Of a stretch of DNA of 20,064 nucleotides, positions 1-20,064 are shown one piece after another. Within the stretch, counting starts at the first letter, position 1, and the number at the start of each line of letters is the position of its first letter. The translations under genes were made by a program, and so were the position numbers. Source of the stretch: a virus; the IMG/VR virus record IMGVR_UViG_3300037294_000048, positions 1 to 20,064 of that record; one strand, written 5' to 3'. The notes beneath the pieces were generated by a model that did no database searches, had not been told where the DNA came from, and saw nothing but the letters and a program-made list of their open reading frames with translations.

Positions 1-476
1 TACTTTTTGAGTTCGACGGCGTGCGCAGGGATCTTGCGCCGAGCCGAGAAGCGGGGGAAAAAGTTGCCCCCTGCGTTACAAACGGCCCTCCTTTCAGTCG
101 CACAGGCAACGAGCGAGTAGAGTGCGAAGCGATAGTACCGGTTGGCAACGTACAAGGCGGGGACGTGACGACCTTGTCTTCACGCGAGTACAAGGGCTTG
201 AGTTGTGGCAGGGACGGCATGACATCTGCTGCTGTCATACACGCAGTAGCACAAGGTAGGAATAATGAGGGAGAGAACGTTTTGGTGCAATCAATGCAAG
301 TCCGCAGATTAACACCTGTTGAGTGCGAACGCTTGCAAGGCTTTCCTGACACTTATACAGACATACAGCCCAACGGCAAGCAAACACCAGATGGACCGCG
401 ATATAAGGCACTGGGTAACAGCATGGCAGTTCCAGTTATGAAATGGATTGGACAACGGATAAAGGAATTAACATGA
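1..476 (+). CDS. C5-cytosine DNA methyltransferase, C-terminal part (5' end outside window)
   Basis: The reading frame is open from the window edge (first full codon at base 3), so this is the 3' part of a larger gene. The C-terminal third carries the two closing motifs of the m5C methyltransferase family: motif IX-like RRLTPVECERLQGFP and motif X-like GPRYKALGNSMAVPVMKWIG, which contribute to DNA and S-adenosylmethionine binding. The preceding ~90 residues would be the variable target-recognition segment. The catalytic PCQ motif and the N-terminal cofactor motifs must lie upstream and are not seen. In phages such enzymes modify the phage genome, usually against host restriction; no partner endonuclease is seen here. 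The stop overlaps the ATG of the next gene (ATGA), consistent with one operon. Confidence 0.93.
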   Translation, partial: LFEFDGVRRDLAPSREAGEKVAPCVTNGPPFSRTGNERVECEAIVPVGNVQGGDVTTLSSREYKGLSCGRDGMTSAAVIHAVAQGRNNEGENVLVQSMQVRRLTPVECERLQGFPDTYTDIQPNGKQTPDGPRYKALGNSMAVPVMKWIGQRIKELT

Positions 477-2393: not shown

Positions 2394-2623
2394 ATATTGA
2401 ACACATCTGCCAAACAATGTCGGCCTTAGCAGGTTCTGATAGCTTCCCACAGGATGACCGAGAGTGGTGGGTTGCTTACTTTTGCGACCCAGTGCTAGTA
2501 GAACGCCTAATCGTGCATATCGCTCAGTCTTATCTCTCTACAGACGAAGATATGTGCAAATTACTAGACATGGTCGAAGGCCATATACAGCGTGTTAAGG
2601 AGCGTGAAAATGAGTGTGTATAA
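2390..2623 (+). CDS. Small acidic hypothetical protein
   Basis: A 77-residue protein starting at the ATG that overlaps the stop of the membrane peptide. An in-frame ATG at 2378 would lie inside that gene and is less likely. The sequence is acidic and helical, with aromatic and Cys residues (DDREWWVAYFCDP, LIVHIAQSYL). It is translated in an overlapping arrangement with the ERF gene, whose start lies 14 nt before this stop. No domain recognised. Its place directly before the annealing protein suggests, but does not prove, a role in DNA metabolism. Confidence 0.7.
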   Translation: MNIEHICQTMSALAGSDSFPQDDREWWVAYFCDPVLVERLIVHIAQSYLSTDEDMCKLLDMVEGHIQRVKERENECV

Positions 2624-3161
2624 GAAACTAGAGGCTATCCAAAAGTCCCTGAAAGCACCCAAAAGTCAGATGAACAAGTTTGGTGGCTACCGTTATCGTT
2701 CTTGCGAGGATATTCTGGAAGCCGTTAAACCTCTGCTAGACGGTGCGGTAGTTACACTAAGCGATACTATCCGAGAAGTTGGTGGCCGTGTTTATGTGGA
2801 GGCTGAGGCTACTTTTGTTGACGGTGAAAACAGTGTCACTGTTACCGCATACGCTCGTGAAGCAGAAACCAAAAAAGGTATGGATGAATCGCAGATCACT
2901 GGTGCGGCTAGTAGCTATGCAAGAAAGTATGCGCTGAACGGTTTGTTCTTGATCGACGACACCAAGGATGCTGATGCGACCAACGTAGGAGAGCCACAGG
3001 ACGTTTCTGTGGCGATTAAGGGTGTTATGTCGGCCGAGTCGCTAGATGCGCTTAAAGCCCAGTTTACAGCCGCCTACGCTATGTTTAAAAGTGATAAAGA
3101 CGCATTAGCCAAGATTAATGCGGCTAAAGACGCTCGGAAGAAGGAGTTGACCGATGTTTGA
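2610..3161 (+). CDS. erf: ERF-family single-strand annealing protein
   Basis: A 183-residue protein. The ATG at 2610 is preceded by AAGGAG (2597-2602) and begins MSVYKKLEAIQKSL. Family hallmarks include FGGYRYRSCEDILEAVKPLL near residue 30 and the Gly/Ala-rich GAASSYARKYALNGLFLIDD with following DTKDAD near residue 100. These define the ERF superfamily of phage annealing proteins (P22 Erf type), which bind ssDNA and pair complementary strands during recombination and genome circularisation. The C-terminal ~55 residues are helical and charged. It overlaps the start of the exonuclease gene by 8 nt. The pair forms a classic two-component recombination system. Confidence 0.93.
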   Translation: MSVYKKLEAIQKSLKAPKSQMNKFGGYRYRSCEDILEAVKPLLDGAVVTLSDTIREVGGRVYVEAEATFVDGENSVTVTAYAREAETKKGMDESQITGAASSYARKYALNGLFLIDDTKDADATNVGEPQDVSVAIKGVMSAESLDALKAQFTAAYAMFKSDKDALAKINAAKDARKKELTDV

Positions 3162-3771
3162 GCAAGGATCGGATGAATGGTTTGCCGCCAGAGCAGGGAA
3201 GGTGACAGCTTCCCGTGTTGCTGATGTTCTATCTAAAGGCAAGGACGGGGAGTCAGCTAGCCGCAAGAACTACAAAGCAGATTTAGTAGTAGAACGCCTG
3301 ACCAAACAAAAGACAGCAGGGTTTAGTAACGCAGCTATGCAATGGGGTGTAGACACAGAACCTCAAGCCAGAGCCGTATACGAGGTTAGGACGGGTGATT
3401 TTGTTGAGCAGATAGCGTTTGTAGACCACCCTGCCATTGTTAATTTTGGGTGTAGTCCAGACGGTTTGGTAGGTGAAGTTGGGTTGATAGAAATAAAGTG
3501 TCCCAACACGGCTACTCATTTAGAGTACTTGGAAGCAGACGCACCGCCCAAGAAGTACTTTATCCAGATGCAAGCACAGATGGCTGTGACTGGGCGCAAG
3601 TGGTGCGATTTTGTATCGTTTGACCCTAGACTACCGGATGGTCTTGAATTGTTAATTGTTAGGGTAAACCGCGATGACAAGTACATCGAGATAATGGAAA
3701 CTGAGGTTAGTAAGTTTTTGCAAGAAATAGACAATAAAGTCGAATCGTTAACGAAAAGGAATGACAAATGA
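3154..3771 (+). CDS. YqaJ/lambda-exonuclease-type 5'-3' exonuclease
   Basis: A 205-residue protein with AAGGAG 7 nt before the ATG. It starts with the family signature QGSDEWFAARAGKVTASR (residues 4-21). The metal-binding active site of the PD-(D/E)XK exonucleases is intact: D103 in CSPDGL, and E113 and K115 in LIEIKCP, the same 10- and 2-residue spacing as in lambda Exo. It is followed by KYFIQMQAQMAVTG, a conserved helix. Such enzymes resect one strand of double-stranded DNA and hand the ssDNA to an annealing protein, here the adjacent ERF. Length is typical (~200-230 aa). The stop overlaps the next ATG (ATGA), consistent with a coupled recombination operon. Confidence 0.94.
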   Translation: MFEQGSDEWFAARAGKVTASRVADVLSKGKDGESASRKNYKADLVVERLTKQKTAGFSNAAMQWGVDTEPQARAVYEVRTGDFVEQIAFVDHPAIVNFGCSPDGLVGEVGLIEIKCPNTATHLEYLEADAPPKKYFIQMQAQMAVTGRKWCDFVSFDPRLPDGLELLIVRVNRDDKYIEIMETEVSKFLQEIDNKVESLTKRNDK

Positions 3772-4010: not shown

Positions 4011-4384
4011 TGCCAGCGAACGAAAAACAGGTTGGTGGCAACCACTACCAATCGGCTATCCAGACGTGGGACTACATACTGTCCCATGATCTGGGGTTCC
4101 TGGAGGGCAATGTTATTAAGTACATTACCCGCCACAGCAAGAAAAACGGGATGCAGGACTTAGAAAAAGCACTGCATTATCTCAACAAACTTATAGAAGT
4201 GGAAAATGATCGACTACAGCACCCACACGATAGAACTGAACAGATTGCTAAAGATGTTCCAGAAGCAATGCCTCAAGAACGACCCAGCGGCCTTAGAAAC
4301 GTGCTTGAAAATTCAGGCAGAAGCCAAGTTGCTCACGAATTCAGTACGGGCTACCGACCAACCTGCCTTAGCGACGTGATCTGA
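4010..4384 (+). CDS. DUF3310 (SaV-like) protein with unusual C-terminal tail
   Basis: A 124-residue protein. Residues ~5-65 match DUF3310 of phage proteins: KQVGGNHYQ, then WDYILSHDLGFLEGNVIKYITRH and MQDLEKALHYLNKLIE. T7 gp1.7, a nucleotide kinase, belongs to this group, but most members are uncharacterised. Start and previous stop overlap (TGATG). The domain normally ends near the LNKLIEVE segment. Here a further ~55 Pro/Arg-rich, low-complexity-looking residues follow, and these bases also encode a compact helical ORF in another frame (4206-4379). The tail may therefore be the by-product of an overlapping gene. The stop overlaps the next ATG by 1 nt. Confidence 0.88.
   Translation: MPANEKQVGGNHYQSAIQTWDYILSHDLGFLEGNVIKYITRHSKKNGMQDLEKALHYLNKLIEVENDRLQHPHDRTEQIAKDVPEAMPQERPSGLRNVLENSGRSQVAHEFSTGYRPTCLSDVI
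4206..4379 (+). CDS. Embedded 57-residue ORF overlapping the DUF3310 tail
   Basis: A 57-codon frame lying wholly inside the 3' part of the DUF3310 gene, shifted by one base. Its product is a coherent amphipathic helical protein (HTIELNRLLKMFQKQCLKND, then ALETCLKIQAEAKLL). This resembles small helical proteins that follow DUF3310 genes in other phages more than random overlap sequence does. Ribosome site: AGAAGTGG about 5-9 nt upstream, weak to moderate. Codon third positions are G/C-rich, unlike the neighbouring frame. It ends 5 nt before the next gene. Both frames could be translated, or only one; the sequence alone does not settle it. Confidence 0.5.
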   Translation: MIDYSTHTIELNRLLKMFQKQCLKNDPAALETCLKIQAEAKLLTNSVRATDQPALAT

Positions 4385-4734
4385 TGCACGACCACATAGA
4401 CGGACACATTAAGTTAATCAACGCGATTGTTGCGCTTGCAGTGCTAGACACGACCCGACAATGCAAGCACAAGCTAGACACGACCCGACAATGCAAGCAC
4501 AAGCTAGACACCGAGGCACAAACAGCGTTTAGGTTTTTGTTTAGCGACGATGTGGATGTTTACCTTGAATTGATTGACATAAACCCTGACCACTTTAAGC
4601 GCAAACTAAAGGAATCTATGTATAACAACAGTACAGCCTTTACAGACACCCAGAAACGAGCGTTCAAAATGAACTTTGTAAAATGGGAAAATTACAGCAA
4701 AGTTGCCCGCCTTAGCCTTGCTACCACAGAGTAA
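4384..4734 (+). CDS. Conserved phage hypothetical protein with internal 10-residue duplication
   Basis: A 116-residue helical protein. The core reads TAFRFLFSDDVDVYLELIDINPDHFKRKLKESM, followed by FTDTQKRAFKMNFVKW. The 'F.FLFSDD...YL.LIDI.P..F...L' pattern is typical of a small uncharacterised family in marine and freshwater phages. Near residue 21 the ten residues LDTTRQCKHK occur twice in tandem, encoded by two identical 30-bp copies. Without one copy the protein would join smoothly (LDTTRQCKHKLDTEAQ), so the second copy looks like a recent insertion that keeps the frame. Function unknown. Confidence 0.8.
   Translation: MHDHIDGHIKLINAIVALAVLDTTRQCKHKLDTTRQCKHKLDTEAQTAFRFLFSDDVDVYLELIDINPDHFKRKLKESMYNNSTAFTDTQKRAFKMNFVKWENYSKVARLSLATTE
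4444..4511 (+). repeat. Perfect 30-bp tandem duplication plus 8-bp partial third copy
   Basis: The unit starts CTAGACACGACCCGAC and ends AAGCACAAG. Copies occupy 4444-4473 and 4474-4503 with no differences. The next 8 bases (4504-4511, CTAGACAC) match the unit's beginning, the geometry expected from slippage between short direct repeats. It adds ten in-frame residues to the host protein. Confidence 0.97.
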
Positions 4735-4739
4735 CGATA

Positions 4740-5093
4740 ATGCAACGTACAATACTTCGCCTCACCGCAGACAGGTCTCGTGTCATCGAAATGATATCAC
4801 AAGCGCCAGATGGCTACGTGGTGGAGATCAGGCAGACATCTCGGACGCTTGAGCAAAATGCGCTTTACTGGACGACTGTGCATGAGATAGCGGAATCTAT
4901 GCGTATAGATGGCAAAGCGTTTACACCACAAGTGTGGCACGTTTACTTTAAGCAGCGGTTCCTGCCAGGCAAGATTATTGAGCTACCAAACGGGCAACTG
5001 ATGGAGTCAGACCCTAGCACCACCGATCTTACAAAAGAAGAATTTACAGACTTTATCAACAGTGTGTTACTTTTCAAGGACGAAAACCAATGA
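4740..5093 (+). CDS. ninB: NinB-like recombination protein
   Basis: A 117-residue protein. The diagnostic stretch is SRTLEQNALYWTTVHEIAESM (residues ~34-54), followed by PQVWHVYFKQRFLPG and, near the C-terminus, TTDLTKEEFTDFINSVLLF. These are the landmarks of the NinB/Orf family of lambdoid phages, which bind ssDNA and SSB and can replace RecFOR functions in the Red pathway. Length is a little below lambda NinB (~146 aa). It lies downstream of the ERF/exonuclease pair, which fits a recombination role. The ribosome site is weak (GAGTAACGATA). The stop overlaps the next start (CAATGA). Confidence 0.88.
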   Translation: MQRTILRLTADRSRVIEMISQAPDGYVVEIRQTSRTLEQNALYWTTVHEIAESMRIDGKAFTPQVWHVYFKQRFLPGKIIELPNGQLMESDPSTTDLTKEEFTDFINSVLLFKDENQ

Positions 5094-15361: not shown

Positions 15362-15660
15362 TAACCCACCACAATATAATCGTATATTTTATCTGTTGAA
15401 ACATTACCTGTATGCAATATGGTTGCTGAGCCATATGCTTGAGCTGATATATAAACTCCCGTTGCTCCAGCAGAATCCGCTGTTTTCGGTATTAACACAA
15501 TTTTACTGCTTGGGCTTATACGCTCATCTGTCAAAGTTGTTGTGGCCCCAGTTGCTAACGTAACCGAACCGGTGTTGTTTGTTTTTCCGTTTAAGGTGTT
15601 ATTAACAATTTCTGACACATCCCTAGCGGTTCCACCCTGTGGTGGGAGTCCCCTAAACAT
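15361..15660 (-). CDS. Small conserved virion-cluster protein
   Basis: A 99-residue, beta-rich protein: N-terminal helix (GGTARDVSEIVNNTLNGKTN), then Thr/Gly-rich strands (GSVTLATGATTTLTDERISP, KIVLIPKTADSAGATG) and the end GSATILHTG...YDYIVVG. The 'VNN..NGKTNNTG.VTL' beginning and 'GSATI.H......YDY...G' ending belong to a small family found beside phage tail/fibre genes, probably a structural (fibre-adaptor or decoration-like) protein. It has a weak ribosome site and 1-nt overlaps on both sides (TAATG). Confidence 0.75.
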   Translation of the reverse strand: MFRGLPPQGGTARDVSEIVNNTLNGKTNNTGSVTLATGATTTLTDERISPSSKIVLIPKTADSAGATGVYISAQAYGSATILHTGNVSTDKIYDYIVVG

Positions 15661-17081
15661 TATCTGCCACTCACTGGTTGAACTTCAATATCCACCGCCA
15701 TAGCTGTTGTCCAGTTGCCCGTAGGTTTTACCCTGAGCCTGTGATACCTGCCAATAGACCTAAGAGGGACACGGTTCTCAGATGACGCAGAGTTATCTGA
15801 GCTAAAGTTAACCCCCCCATCTAACCGAAATCTACTAGCAACCGCTATATCAGCAGACCCACCCTCAATTTGTGGAAAAGCCATCTTGGTAATAGACTGC
15901 ATTCCTTCCTCGAAATCGCCCGTTACTAACTGAGGCAACATAGGCGTACCAGCAAATAAGATAATTTGAGCGTCCCTAACTCCTGCAAACAACGATTTAC
16001 CACCCGCCCACAGCCGAGAATCTAACGAGGCTGGAACACCCTCTAGGCTGGTGTAAATATCTAACTGTTCAAGCGTAGTCCCTACGGTAGAAACGTTACA
16101 CACAAAATGCGCCGTTGTAATTCCATAGCTCCATTTACCTGTTTGCCAGTTGTACATTAAAATAGTCTGCTCTGCGTTTGTGTTCGGGTAACACCAAGCC
16201 ACTATGTTGCGAGTGGGGTCAATCGATGTGGACATCTGATCTAACTTACCCTCGTCTACGTCGTCAAAGAACCAGCGGTCTACCTTCTCTGCGCCGATTG
16301 GTGTAATGGTATTTCCGTCGCATACATAAAAGCCATCAGCGGACAAAAAGAAAGTTCTGGCTCCATACTGCACAATGCTGTTGGGTTCATAACAACCCAG
16401 ATTGCGTGAAATGGCATCAAACTGAAAGAACAGAGGGCTGCCAATGTACGACATGCGATAAGTAGATGAATCCAATAATACTAAGCCAAACTCGCCCCCT
16501 GTAACTCCATGTATGTTGCCACCGTCTGGTATGTCTTGGAAATCTGATTGAGAAGTTGTACCAGGAGTCCAATCGGTTTCATCGTTGATGTCTGACCAGT
16601 AAATTCTGTTCGGGTAACTAGAGTTGTTTGCTGCCACCACAAAGTCGCGCACAACCGTCACGAATCTTGCAACAGGGGCGGACGCTGATAAGTCTGCCCA
16701 TGCCGTTGAAGTGCCGATAGTCCAGCCTTGTAGATCGTCGTTTCCGTTAGCAGCCACCAAAACTTTACCGAATTGCGTAAAGTTCCACCGAGAAACACCC
16801 GTGTATCCGCCAGCCTTAGACACGTCGTCTAAATCTAGATCGTTCGGGTCAAACTTAAGCAGTTTAGAATCCCCGCCAGCAAACAATTGAACGGTGTCTC
16901 CAAACTTACCCACAACAGCCGTTAATAAGTCCTCGGACGCACTGTTTGAAAACACTTCTACCGATGGCAGTGGCCCGTAACCGTTCAGCACTGGGACAAC
17001 ATTTTTTGCATCTGTCAGTGCCCCCGTTAATCCTGGCTGGTCTGGTAACCACTCGCCTAGTACTAGCCTCTTTGTAGCCAT
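15660..17081 (-). CDS. P22 gp10-like structural (tail/head-completion) protein
   Basis: A 473-residue protein with AAGGGACAAACAT before the ATG. It starts LGEWLPDQPGLTGALTDAKN and then contains repeated beta-strand segments with Gly/Asp turns (VGKFGDTVQLFAGGDSKLLK, VAANGNDDLQGW, IYWSDINDETDWTPG, AWCYPN, ILMYNWQTGKWSYG). This beta-propeller-like layout, and its position between tail and fibre genes, is that of the phage family that includes the P22 gp10 'packaged DNA stabilisation' / tail-completion proteins. Role: probably part of the head-tail or tail-hub assembly. No enzymatic motif. It overlaps the upstream repeat protein gene by 19 nt. Confidence 0.8.
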   Translation of the reverse strand: MATKRLVLGEWLPDQPGLTGALTDAKNVVPVLNGYGPLPSVEVFSNSASEDLLTAVVGKFGDTVQLFAGGDSKLLKFDPNDLDLDDVSKAGGYTGVSRWNFTQFGKVLVAANGNDDLQGWTIGTSTAWADLSASAPVARFVTVVRDFVVAANNSSYPNRIYWSDINDETDWTPGTTSQSDFQDIPDGGNIHGVTGGEFGLVLLDSSTYRMSYIGSPLFFQFDAISRNLGCYEPNSIVQYGARTFFLSADGFYVCDGNTITPIGAEKVDRWFFDDVDEGKLDQMSTSIDPTRNIVAWCYPNTNAEQTILMYNWQTGKWSYGITTAHFVCNVSTVGTTLEQLDIYTSLEGVPASLDSRLWAGGKSLFAGVRDAQIILFAGTPMLPQLVTGDFEEGMQSITKMAFPQIEGGSADIAVASRFRLDGGVNFSSDNSASSENRVPLRSIGRYHRLRVKPTGNWTTAMAVDIEVQPVSGR

Positions 17082-17656: not shown

Positions 17657-17974
17657 TTAACCCCAAACACGCATTGGGTATGGCTCTGGGTCAATTGAAT
17701 ACGCCATTAGCGGCTCTGCGTCCTCACCCACTACGCGCACATTTACAAACCAACCATCGTAAGGTACAGGCACGTAACCTTCTGTCACTGGGTCAGGCGC
17801 AGGTTGATAGATCACGCCAATCGTGTCGATATTAACGTAATTAGGTGTCCAGCTCACAATCACATCGGGCAACGGGTCTTCAGGCGTAGACTCAGGGTCA
17901 GGCGCATAGGTCGGTGTGTATAGAACAGATTGCGCTTGCTCTTCGTCAACAAATTTTAGGTAAAAATCTTGCAT
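17657..17974 (-). CDS. Small conserved fibre-associated protein
   Basis: A 105-residue acidic, Pro-rich protein with AGGGAACCAAT before the ATG. It begins MQDFYLKFVDEEQAQSVLYT, then DTIGVIYQPAPDPVTEGYVP, YDGWFVNVRVVG and the ending PYPMRVWG. This layout ('FYLKF....A..VLY...ID.IG.IYEP......GY..V.G.HVN.R...P....RVW') is a very common companion gene of phage tail fibres. It is thought to be a virion or fibre-assembly protein, though its role is not established. It lies 12 nt downstream of the large fibre gene and 3 nt before the repeat protein. Confidence 0.82.
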   Translation of the reverse strand: MQDFYLKFVDEEQAQSVLYTPTYAPDPESTPEDPLPDVIVSWTPNYVNIDTIGVIYQPAPDPVTEGYVPVPYDGWFVNVRVVGEDAEPLMAYSIDPEPYPMRVWG

Positions 17975-17986
17975 ATTGGTTCCCTA

Positions 17987-20064
17987 TTATGTATTAATCT
18001 GAGTTACGCCACCCGACAGGTATGGTTTCAGCCCGTTAGCATTGTTGGCGAATGTAGCGTTTGCGCTCAAGGAGAATGCGTTTGGCTGTGCTGTTAGACC
18101 CGTTACCATGCCCGATAAGTCTTGGTTAAATGCTGACGCACTTTGGAACATTTGTGACATATTAGTAACTGCACTTGTGTTCCAAGCTCCGATGTTTTGG
18201 TTAAATGCTGATGCAAAGAGGAACATAGCAAGCATACTAGTAACTGCACTTGTATTCCATAACCCGATGTCTTGGTTAAATGCTGATGCAGTGTGGAACA
18301 TACTAGCCATATTAGTAACTGCGCTTGTGTTCCAAGAACCTATGTCTTGGTTAAATGCTGATGCTAGGTAGAACATCTGAGTCATTGTAGTAACTTCACC
18401 TGTGTTCCAAGAACCTATGTCTTGGTTAAATGCTGATGCTTGTCGGAACATATTAGCCATATCAGTAACTTCACCTGTGTTCCAAGAACCTATGTCTTGG
18501 TTAAATGCTGATGCTTGTTGGAACATTTGAGACATATAAGTAACTGCACTTGTGTTCCAAGAACTAATGTCTTGGTTAAATGCTGATGCTAGGTAGAACA
18601 TACTAGCCATATTAGTAACTGCACTTGTATTCCAACTACCGATGTCTTGGTTAAATGCTATTGCACTTTTGAACATACTAGCCATATTAGTAACTGCACT
18701 TGTGTTCCAGTTACCAATAGCACCGTTCAATACTGTACAGCCTTGAAACATAGTATTTACCGCGCCAATCAAAACAGGCGCGTCAGTAGCTGTGCCAACT
18801 AAATTAGCACAACCAGTAAACGCTACATTCCAAGTAGTCATACCCGTAACGCTACCCCATTGCCTAACATCCACGCACTTGAGTCTATCCCCTGCGTTAT
18901 TAAAAAATGGTGCTGTATATGTACCCGTTACACTAATATCGTAGTATCCCGCAAGCGCATAGGTCTTAGCAGTTAAGTCACCCGTTGAAGTAACGCTAGT
19001 ACCATCACCCCAATTAACAACACCATTACGAGTACCCGCACGGTTAGGCCATTGGAATGTGCCACCGTCTGCACTGATAAACACGGTCATTACAAACGCA
19101 TTAGCAGGAGCGTCTACAGGCGTTACCAGTGATCGATACTCTACATCTGATGGGTAGTAGCTTAGTTTCTTATGTGTGCCGACACCTAGAGTTAGGCTTG
19201 TGGTAGCCGTTGGGTAAAAAGGTAAGCCGTAGCTACGGTCAGCGACCACAGGCGCACGAAGGTTAGCAGTACCCGCTGTGACAATGATGCCTGACTCTGG
19301 TGTGTCTACGTCAGCGATTAAAGTGCCTTGACCCGATTGGTTATACCATTGAGTGAAGTTAGAGCCTGAGAGCGTGAATGCGTCTGCGGCTCGTGTGACT
19401 TGTGATTCTACTGTTGGAATGTAAGATGATGCGTAAGAGCCTGCTTCTAGTTGTGCGCCCCAAAGATAGATACCTGATACTCCATCGCCTGTGTATGAAA
19501 TAGGGTTGCCCATACCCATTACAAAATAAACTGTTTTATTTAATGTGGGTGTGGTAATAGAGCATTTATACCAACCGTTACCAACATTTTCTATGTCTGC
19601 ACTTGCTAATTGAACGCCTGTAGTTACAGAAACTGCCCCATTACTTAAATTGAAATAAGCAATTCCGTAGAAAGAGCTATCTGACCATATATTAAATATG
19701 TTGCGTTCTCCGGCTTTAGCATACATACTTAAAGTGTAAACTCCATTTATAGCAATAGGTCTAAGTAAATAATGTGTATTAGTAGCAGAATTTTCCACTA
19801 ACTTATCACCTGTTAAATTACCATCAGGCGTAATAATAACGTTCGGTGTTACCGTTGCATTTGTTTTAGCCCAAGCCGCATTACTAAAATCTTGACTATA
19901 CGTCATCAAATTAGTCCTCTGCGCTTCCCGCATCAACCCTAAACACTCGCCTGTCACCGCATCATATGTAATCCTCGGCTCATTAGCGACAGCAGTCTGG
20001 ATAACACCGAACTTGTCTGTGTATGTTGCTGTAGAGGCTCGTGCGGATACGATACGTGGGTCTA
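17987..20064 (-). CDS. Large tail fibre/adhesin with DUF285 (BspA-like) repeats (5' end outside window)
   Basis: The frame is open to the window edge: upstream of an in-frame GTG at 19957 it still reads [19 protein letters not shown] and [12 protein letters not shown]. The gene is therefore partial, with at least 691 codons inside. Order of parts: (1) residues [20 protein letters not shown]...[19 protein letters not shown] (about 19400-19950), a carbohydrate-binding/lectin-like domain common in phage fibres; (2) a WGDG motif (19001-19015) followed by [13 protein letters not shown], a PKD-like fold; (3) a transition ([13 protein letters not shown]); (4) eight 25-residue DUF285/BspA-type repeats (18110-18709); (5) a ~40-residue end ([17 protein letters not shown]). 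It is probably a receptor-binding fibre. DUF285 proteins elsewhere are cell-surface adhesins. The left neighbour is the small fibre-associated gene. Confidence 0.9.
18110..18709 (-). repeat. Eight exact 75-bp units: DUF285/BspA-like repeats with conserved frame and variable codons
   Basis: 600 bp = 8 x 75 with no indel. The framework (WNT..VT.M..MF...AFNQDIG) is close to invariant, even at silent sites. Codons 8, 10-11 and 14-15 of the unit vary strongly; codons 14-15 form a 6-nt block with six different versions in eight copies. One degenerate copy precedes the array (~18710-18745) and a decayed one follows. Confidence 0.95.

Follow-up and report, generated by a model that had tools for sequence, protein, structure and literature searches.

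How can eight repeat units of a phage fibre gene agree down to the silent sites in most of their columns and still differ by whole codons at a few fixed positions? The window analysed here is an entire 20,064-base virus record, IMGVR_UViG_3300037294_000048. At positions 18110-18709, on the minus strand, it carries an array of eight 75-bp PARCEL/DUF285 units, running from unit 1 (18635-18709, minus) to unit 8 (18110-18184, minus) and delimited by Tandem Repeats Finder, PF03382 and TIGR02167. The Tandem Repeats Finder score of 655, at a period of 75 with 0% indels, indicates that the array is not a product of chance, and together with the translation it bears out the eight units of exactly 75 bp described in an earlier, sequence-only reading. 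We consider it likely that the array forms a receptor-binding fibre solenoid of PARCEL/DUF285 units, and that its diversity arises from a shared pool of cassettes through homologous recombination, together with selection.

The fibre gene and its repeat family

The array lies in a gene for a fibre protein of 691 aa (17987..20062, minus strand), identified from its open frame, a phrog_5939 match and synteny with phage Venkman. Its 5' end is cut by the window edge and missing, since the window is the whole record. Residues 1-263 match the tail protein family phrog_5939 (PHROG), and residues 46-226 (19385..19927, minus) match the GTA/phage head-spike fibre domain NF048003 of NCBIfam with 169.5 bits against a cut-off of 36. 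This domain makes up the N-terminal half of the protein and the DUF285 array its C-terminal part. The array is preceded by degenerate units or half-units, probably an N-terminal solenoid cap, with approximate limits 18710..~18859 (minus; translation and a Tandem Repeats Finder row at 18597-18752), and is closed by a C-terminal cap, MVTGLTAQP...GGVTQINT (17987..18109, minus), which the alignment shows to be kept in relatives.

Immediately downstream of the array gene lies a small conserved gene (17657..17974, minus, phrog_18574), and in the relatives L004, L005, L006 and L016 the array gene is likewise followed by a gene that starts in the same way. A phage stabilisation or virion structural protein (15660..17081, minus, phrog_3287) is 55% identical to its counterpart in Methylophilales phage Venkman, in which the tail-fibre block is the stretch between the tail tube and the stabilisation protein. 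By this synteny the array gene belongs to the tail-fibre block, and judging from these sequence matches the gene most likely encodes a fibre or spike adhesin.

The window as a whole gave no megablast match to named phages. Elsewhere it holds a C5 cytosine methylase that the window start truncates to its C-terminal part (3-476, plus strand), a perfect 30-bp tandem repeat of 2.3 copies (4443-4511) within the ORF at 4384-4734, and a calcineurin-like phosphoesterase gene (PF00149; 7711-8667, minus) that adjoins the holin and lysozyme genes.

The units match DUF285 (PF03382) with an E-value of 2e-95 and the NCBIfam model TIGR02167, 'PARCEL repeat-containing surface protein', with 150.8 bits over seven stretches (cut-off 30), which confirms the DUF285/BspA-type assignment made from the letters alone. 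As defined by Roske et al. 2010 (PMC2996958), PARCELs (Palindromic Amphipathic Repeat Coding ELements) are repeats of 25 residues in which hydrophobic positions are conserved and hydrophilic ones vary. Column entropies of the units track those of 1143 DUF285 units from other loci with a rho of 0.90; the place of the variable positions is thus a rule of the family and not special to the window phage. One further locus, L056, carries a long Thr/Pro-rich stretch of the TPTNTATQ type before its DUF285 units, in one open frame.

AlphaFold2 predicts a beta-solenoid for the cap and array, with modest confidence (mean pLDDT 64.9, pTM 0.72). In the later units of the model, one strand spans codons 8-14 and short strands lie at codons 17-19, 23 and 1-2. 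Of the variable codons, 8, 10, 11 and 14 fall in the one strand and 15 comes just after it. The model is compatible with an arrangement of the variable positions on one face, where the variable residues would be surface-exposed. Viral structures matched by Foldseek include BspA-annotated proteins. In the PDB, Foldseek returned no fold match at E <= 0.001, and there was no useful sequence match and no solved relative; the model of the full-length fibre was too poor for use.

Framework and variable codons

Four framework positions carry the same codon in 8/8 units (ACA at codon 3, GTT at 6, ACT at 7 and TTC at 13), and so does each codon of the run GCA TTT AAC CAA at 18-21. Whole-codon differences between units occur at codons 8, 10, 11, 14 and 15; the codons quoted earlier for positions 8 and 14-15 were right. 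The reported alternation of Ser-Ala with Gly-Glu at codons 4-5 did not stand, as Gly-Glu is confined to the neighbouring units 4 and 5. Likewise, the framework is identical at synonymous positions in most units and columns, but not at codons 23-25 (Ile-Gly-Ser), which are not silent-homogeneous. These three codons are saturated at silent sites (codon identity for Ile23 is 0.33 against 0.38 expected) and behave as linked 9-bp alleles, for example at 18635-18643, placed between two silent-homogeneous blocks. Otherwise the segments of the unit are weakly linked to one another, except for some neighbouring codons. Each unit contains two conserved 21-bp blocks, codons 1-7 and 16-22. At column 8 the third base is T in 80/83 units while bases 1 and 2 vary.

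Several causes of the silent identity were considered and rejected. Codon bias does not account for it, as one amino acid takes different codons by column: Thr is ACA at column 3 but ACT at column 7, and Phe is TTC at 13 but TTT at 19, the chance identity of two Thr codons in phages of this group being 0.27. A constraint from RNA structure or palindromes found no support, since recoded arrays fold equally well or better than the natural one (GC-adjusted z +1.05); only two inverted pairs, 11 nt long and imperfect, are present in the array DNA. A universal conserved DNA element is at odds with the other patterns of silent homogeneity found in other DUF285 arrays, some of which show a pattern opposite to the one described above for codons 23-25.

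Turnover and recombination among related phages

The orthologues L004, L005, L006 and L016 were found by protein search, so that their silent sites were unselected by the search. Their arrays have 10, 10, 9 and 7 units; the framework codons recur in them, the variable codons differ. The variable codons are thus not fixed across strains, the point on which the sequence-only reading had staked its diversification idea, and copy number, which it thought might change, ranges from 6 to about 11-13 units across relatives. All these sequences are metagenomic contigs, in which repeats are open to misassembly.

Tempo is best seen among close relatives. L086, L130 and L139 differ at 14-21 of 392 upstream codons (7-12 synonymous and 5-9 nonsynonymous changes), and their arrays hold 11, 6 and 8 units, respectively, with even the best-matching units still differing at 2.7-2.9 of the 5 variable residues. 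In a comparison of eight phages, closer flanks do not bring more similar arrays (rho -0.60 for framework and -0.30 for variable codons). Unit number and variable residues of the array turn over far faster than the rest of the fibre gene.

Recombination can be followed in near-identical pairs. L078 has flanks identical to those of L121 and L133 (734 and 1500 bp) but 6 units instead of 9, having lost exactly three units (225 bp) in frame relative to L121; its third unit is chimeric, combining parts of L121 units 3 and 6 that meet within 26 shared nucleotides. L105 and L137 share 99.87% identity over 1500 upstream bases and identical units 1-4, while units 5-6 and the C-terminus differ as one block. 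On a finer scale, codons 10, 11, 14 and 15 are jointly shared between phages in 5 pairs against 0.5 expected, a count reached by 1 of 1000 permutations, and L086 and L105 have an exact match of 49 nt. The same array framework also occurs in G006, a 55-kb phage (L102, L234, L235) whose fibre gene is otherwise different and which matches the window by blastn in the array only, over the stretches compared (L102/L234). Within the array, the two ends of this contig share an exact 46-bp overlap, a sign that the genome may be circular.

Same-amino-acid codon identity is 0.78-1.00 in most framework columns and equal within and between phages, despite a pS of 0.31-0.61 between phages over the 170 codons that precede the array. 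The earlier proposal that recombination keeps the framework homogeneous is thereby upheld, although the silent-saturated codons 23-25 are not what a simple homogenisation of entire units would lead one to expect. Recombination acts within and between phages, as seen in the chimeric unit, the tract replacement, the shared sub-unit modules and the array in an unrelated backbone. No silent donor cassettes were found elsewhere in the same record as an array.

The window itself encodes candidate enzymes: an Erf-family single-strand annealing recombinase, which may be the engine of array shuffling (2592..3161, plus; PF04404, E 2e-39; phrog_155), a YqaJ/RecE-like recombination exonuclease (3154..3771, plus; PF09588, E 8e-31; phrog_149, phrog_434) and a NinB/Orf recombination mediator (4740..5093, plus; PF05772, E 1e-11; phrog_72). 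On DNA of 78% identity, Erf of phage D3 recombined with roughly the efficiency of lambda Red (PMC3945230). Among the records, most of them fragments, only that of L005 shares Erf with the window, and only those of L016 and L106 share YqaJ with it; neither gene was found in the 37-kb record with the copy-number change or in the apparently circular G006. Since relatives rarely show recombination genes in their fragments, we infer rather than observe that Erf is the enzyme responsible for the shuffling.

Origin of the diversity and related systems

In the explanation that we favour, units would be added, removed, joined and replaced by homologous recombination, both within an array and between arrays of co-infecting phages, with homology supplied by the 21-bp conserved blocks of each unit and with the phage's own Erf, YqaJ and NinB genes as the likely engine. 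Framework DNA would stay uniform across the phage pool while variable codons reassort, and selection on binding would then choose among the combinations. More tentatively, one circulating pool of 75-bp PARCEL cassettes, shared across backbones, could constitute a diversity-generating system free of reverse transcriptase, in which co-infecting phages would build new binding solenoids with their annealing recombinases, in the way that immune repertoires are put together from segments; we regard this wider idea as possible but doubtful.

One alternative gives recombination little part: point mutations at exposed codons would be under strong diversifying selection, and the framework would be uniform only because the array expanded recently. 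It would explain why some variable columns, such as column 8, largely retain their third base while bases 1 and 2 vary. It would also fit the arrays of L097 and L107, which differ by three nonsynonymous changes (columns 11, 15 and 18) and zero synonymous ones. The chimeric unit with its exact in-frame loss, the block replacement, the shared modules and the array in an unrelated backbone nevertheless point to recombination, and a recent expansion predicts low silent diversity everywhere, against the saturation of codons 23-25, so that we hold this account to be quite unlikely. The sequence-only reading saw no retroelement, and none emerged from 15 records searched: RVT_1 matched 0/15, including the 55-kb record with overlapping ends, most of the records being fragments, and each record had one array region without a separate template copy. 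A diversity-generating retroelement or related targeted mutator that rewrites the variable codons would suit the fixed variable positions within an invariant framework, and the 328/415 variable codons ending in C or T are reminiscent of NNY outcomes. Framework A sites do vary more often than other sites (7.1% vs 1.5%), yet 93% of framework adenines are unchanged, and the variable codons do not derive from A only: G/C-rich codons such as GCT form the majority in some of their columns, and changes between close pairs (GGA>GCA, TTA>TCA, TCT>GCT) are not restricted to adenine. Such a mutator appears extremely improbable.

Two other accounts accept the turnover and dispute its meaning. If recombination merely reshuffled unconstrained variable positions, with no selection for host tracking, this would suit the variation seen at the same positions in the 1143 DUF285 units from other loci, and also the pN/pS near 1-1.5 measured within variable columns of many arrays. 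Taken over most arrays this ratio is about 0.8-2 in the variable columns alone, which does not prove selection beyond relaxed constraint. Against neutral turnover stand a variable-column pN (about 0.4-0.6) that exceeds the pS of the neighbouring framework (about 0.1-0.3) and the position in a tail-fibre locus beside a spike-fibre domain, where selection on binding is expected; neither is decisive, and we judge neutrality improbable. Alternatively, the protein might serve on the virion surface or as a spike in some other way, for example in decoration, structural length or generic capsule contact, and not determine specificity. The head-spike fibre domain in its N-terminal half is in keeping with this, as is the occurrence of DUF285 in other surface proteins, whose function is unknown (PMC2996958). 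However, the RcGTA head-spike fibre binds encapsulated cells in a capsule-dependent manner, and binding to surface polysaccharide is supported for RcGTA (PMC10218006), so that a spike role would still mean receptor contact; rapid array replacement also fits binding better than a structural role. We consider this alternative unlikely as well.

The recombined, receptor-binding solenoid is therefore retained as the preferred reading. The family, the variable copy number, the recombination and the unfixed codons of the original proposal hold; by its domain matches the fibre protein probably binds a receptor, and selection for host tracking may act on it, a step that stays conditional. Reshuffling of the array, most likely by ordinary recombination, would then let the virus change what it binds. 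If so, fast change of binding specificity needs no retroelement, and short identical blocks in a repeat, acted on by the usual recombination of phages, would suffice. The 283 phage records in which the whole fibre protein is matched would hold many hypervariable receptor-binding candidates, and changes of host range could be traced in metagenomes from array content.

Diversity-generating retroelements of phage tail fibres likewise place variable codons at fixed positions of a fixed framework in a fibre; here, in contrast, no reverse transcriptase or template repeat was found, and unit-to-unit recombination would take their part. The repeats of TAL effectors, with their variable diresidues, also combine near-identical units with few variable codons, in an unrelated fold and function. 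The RcGTA head-spike fibre shares the N-terminal domain family (NF048003), to which the window fibre adds a C-terminal DUF285 solenoid. The same repeat family is present in the genomes of Vibrio phage vB_VhaM_pir03, whose ORF 200 bears a PARCEL/BspA-family annotation (PMC7765460), Aeromonas phage D3 and Edwardsiella phage pEt-SU; many of the phages with the best array matches are large and have their repeats on record as annotations only, and the literature searched describes no diversification mechanism for phage proteins of this family. The PARCEL elements of PMC2996958 resemble the present array in their tandem unit of 25 residues or 75 nt, their conserved hydrophobic and variable positions and their variable copy number, and horizontal transfer and intragenomic shuffling were proposed for them too. 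In contrast to those elements, the window array sits in a phage fibre, its turnover is shown directly between near-identical phages, and its silent-site choice gives no excess RNA folding, so that the palindromic hallmark is not evident. As far as the literature searched shows, the repeat type and the variable positions were already known, and what is new is the tempo and the exchange across phages.
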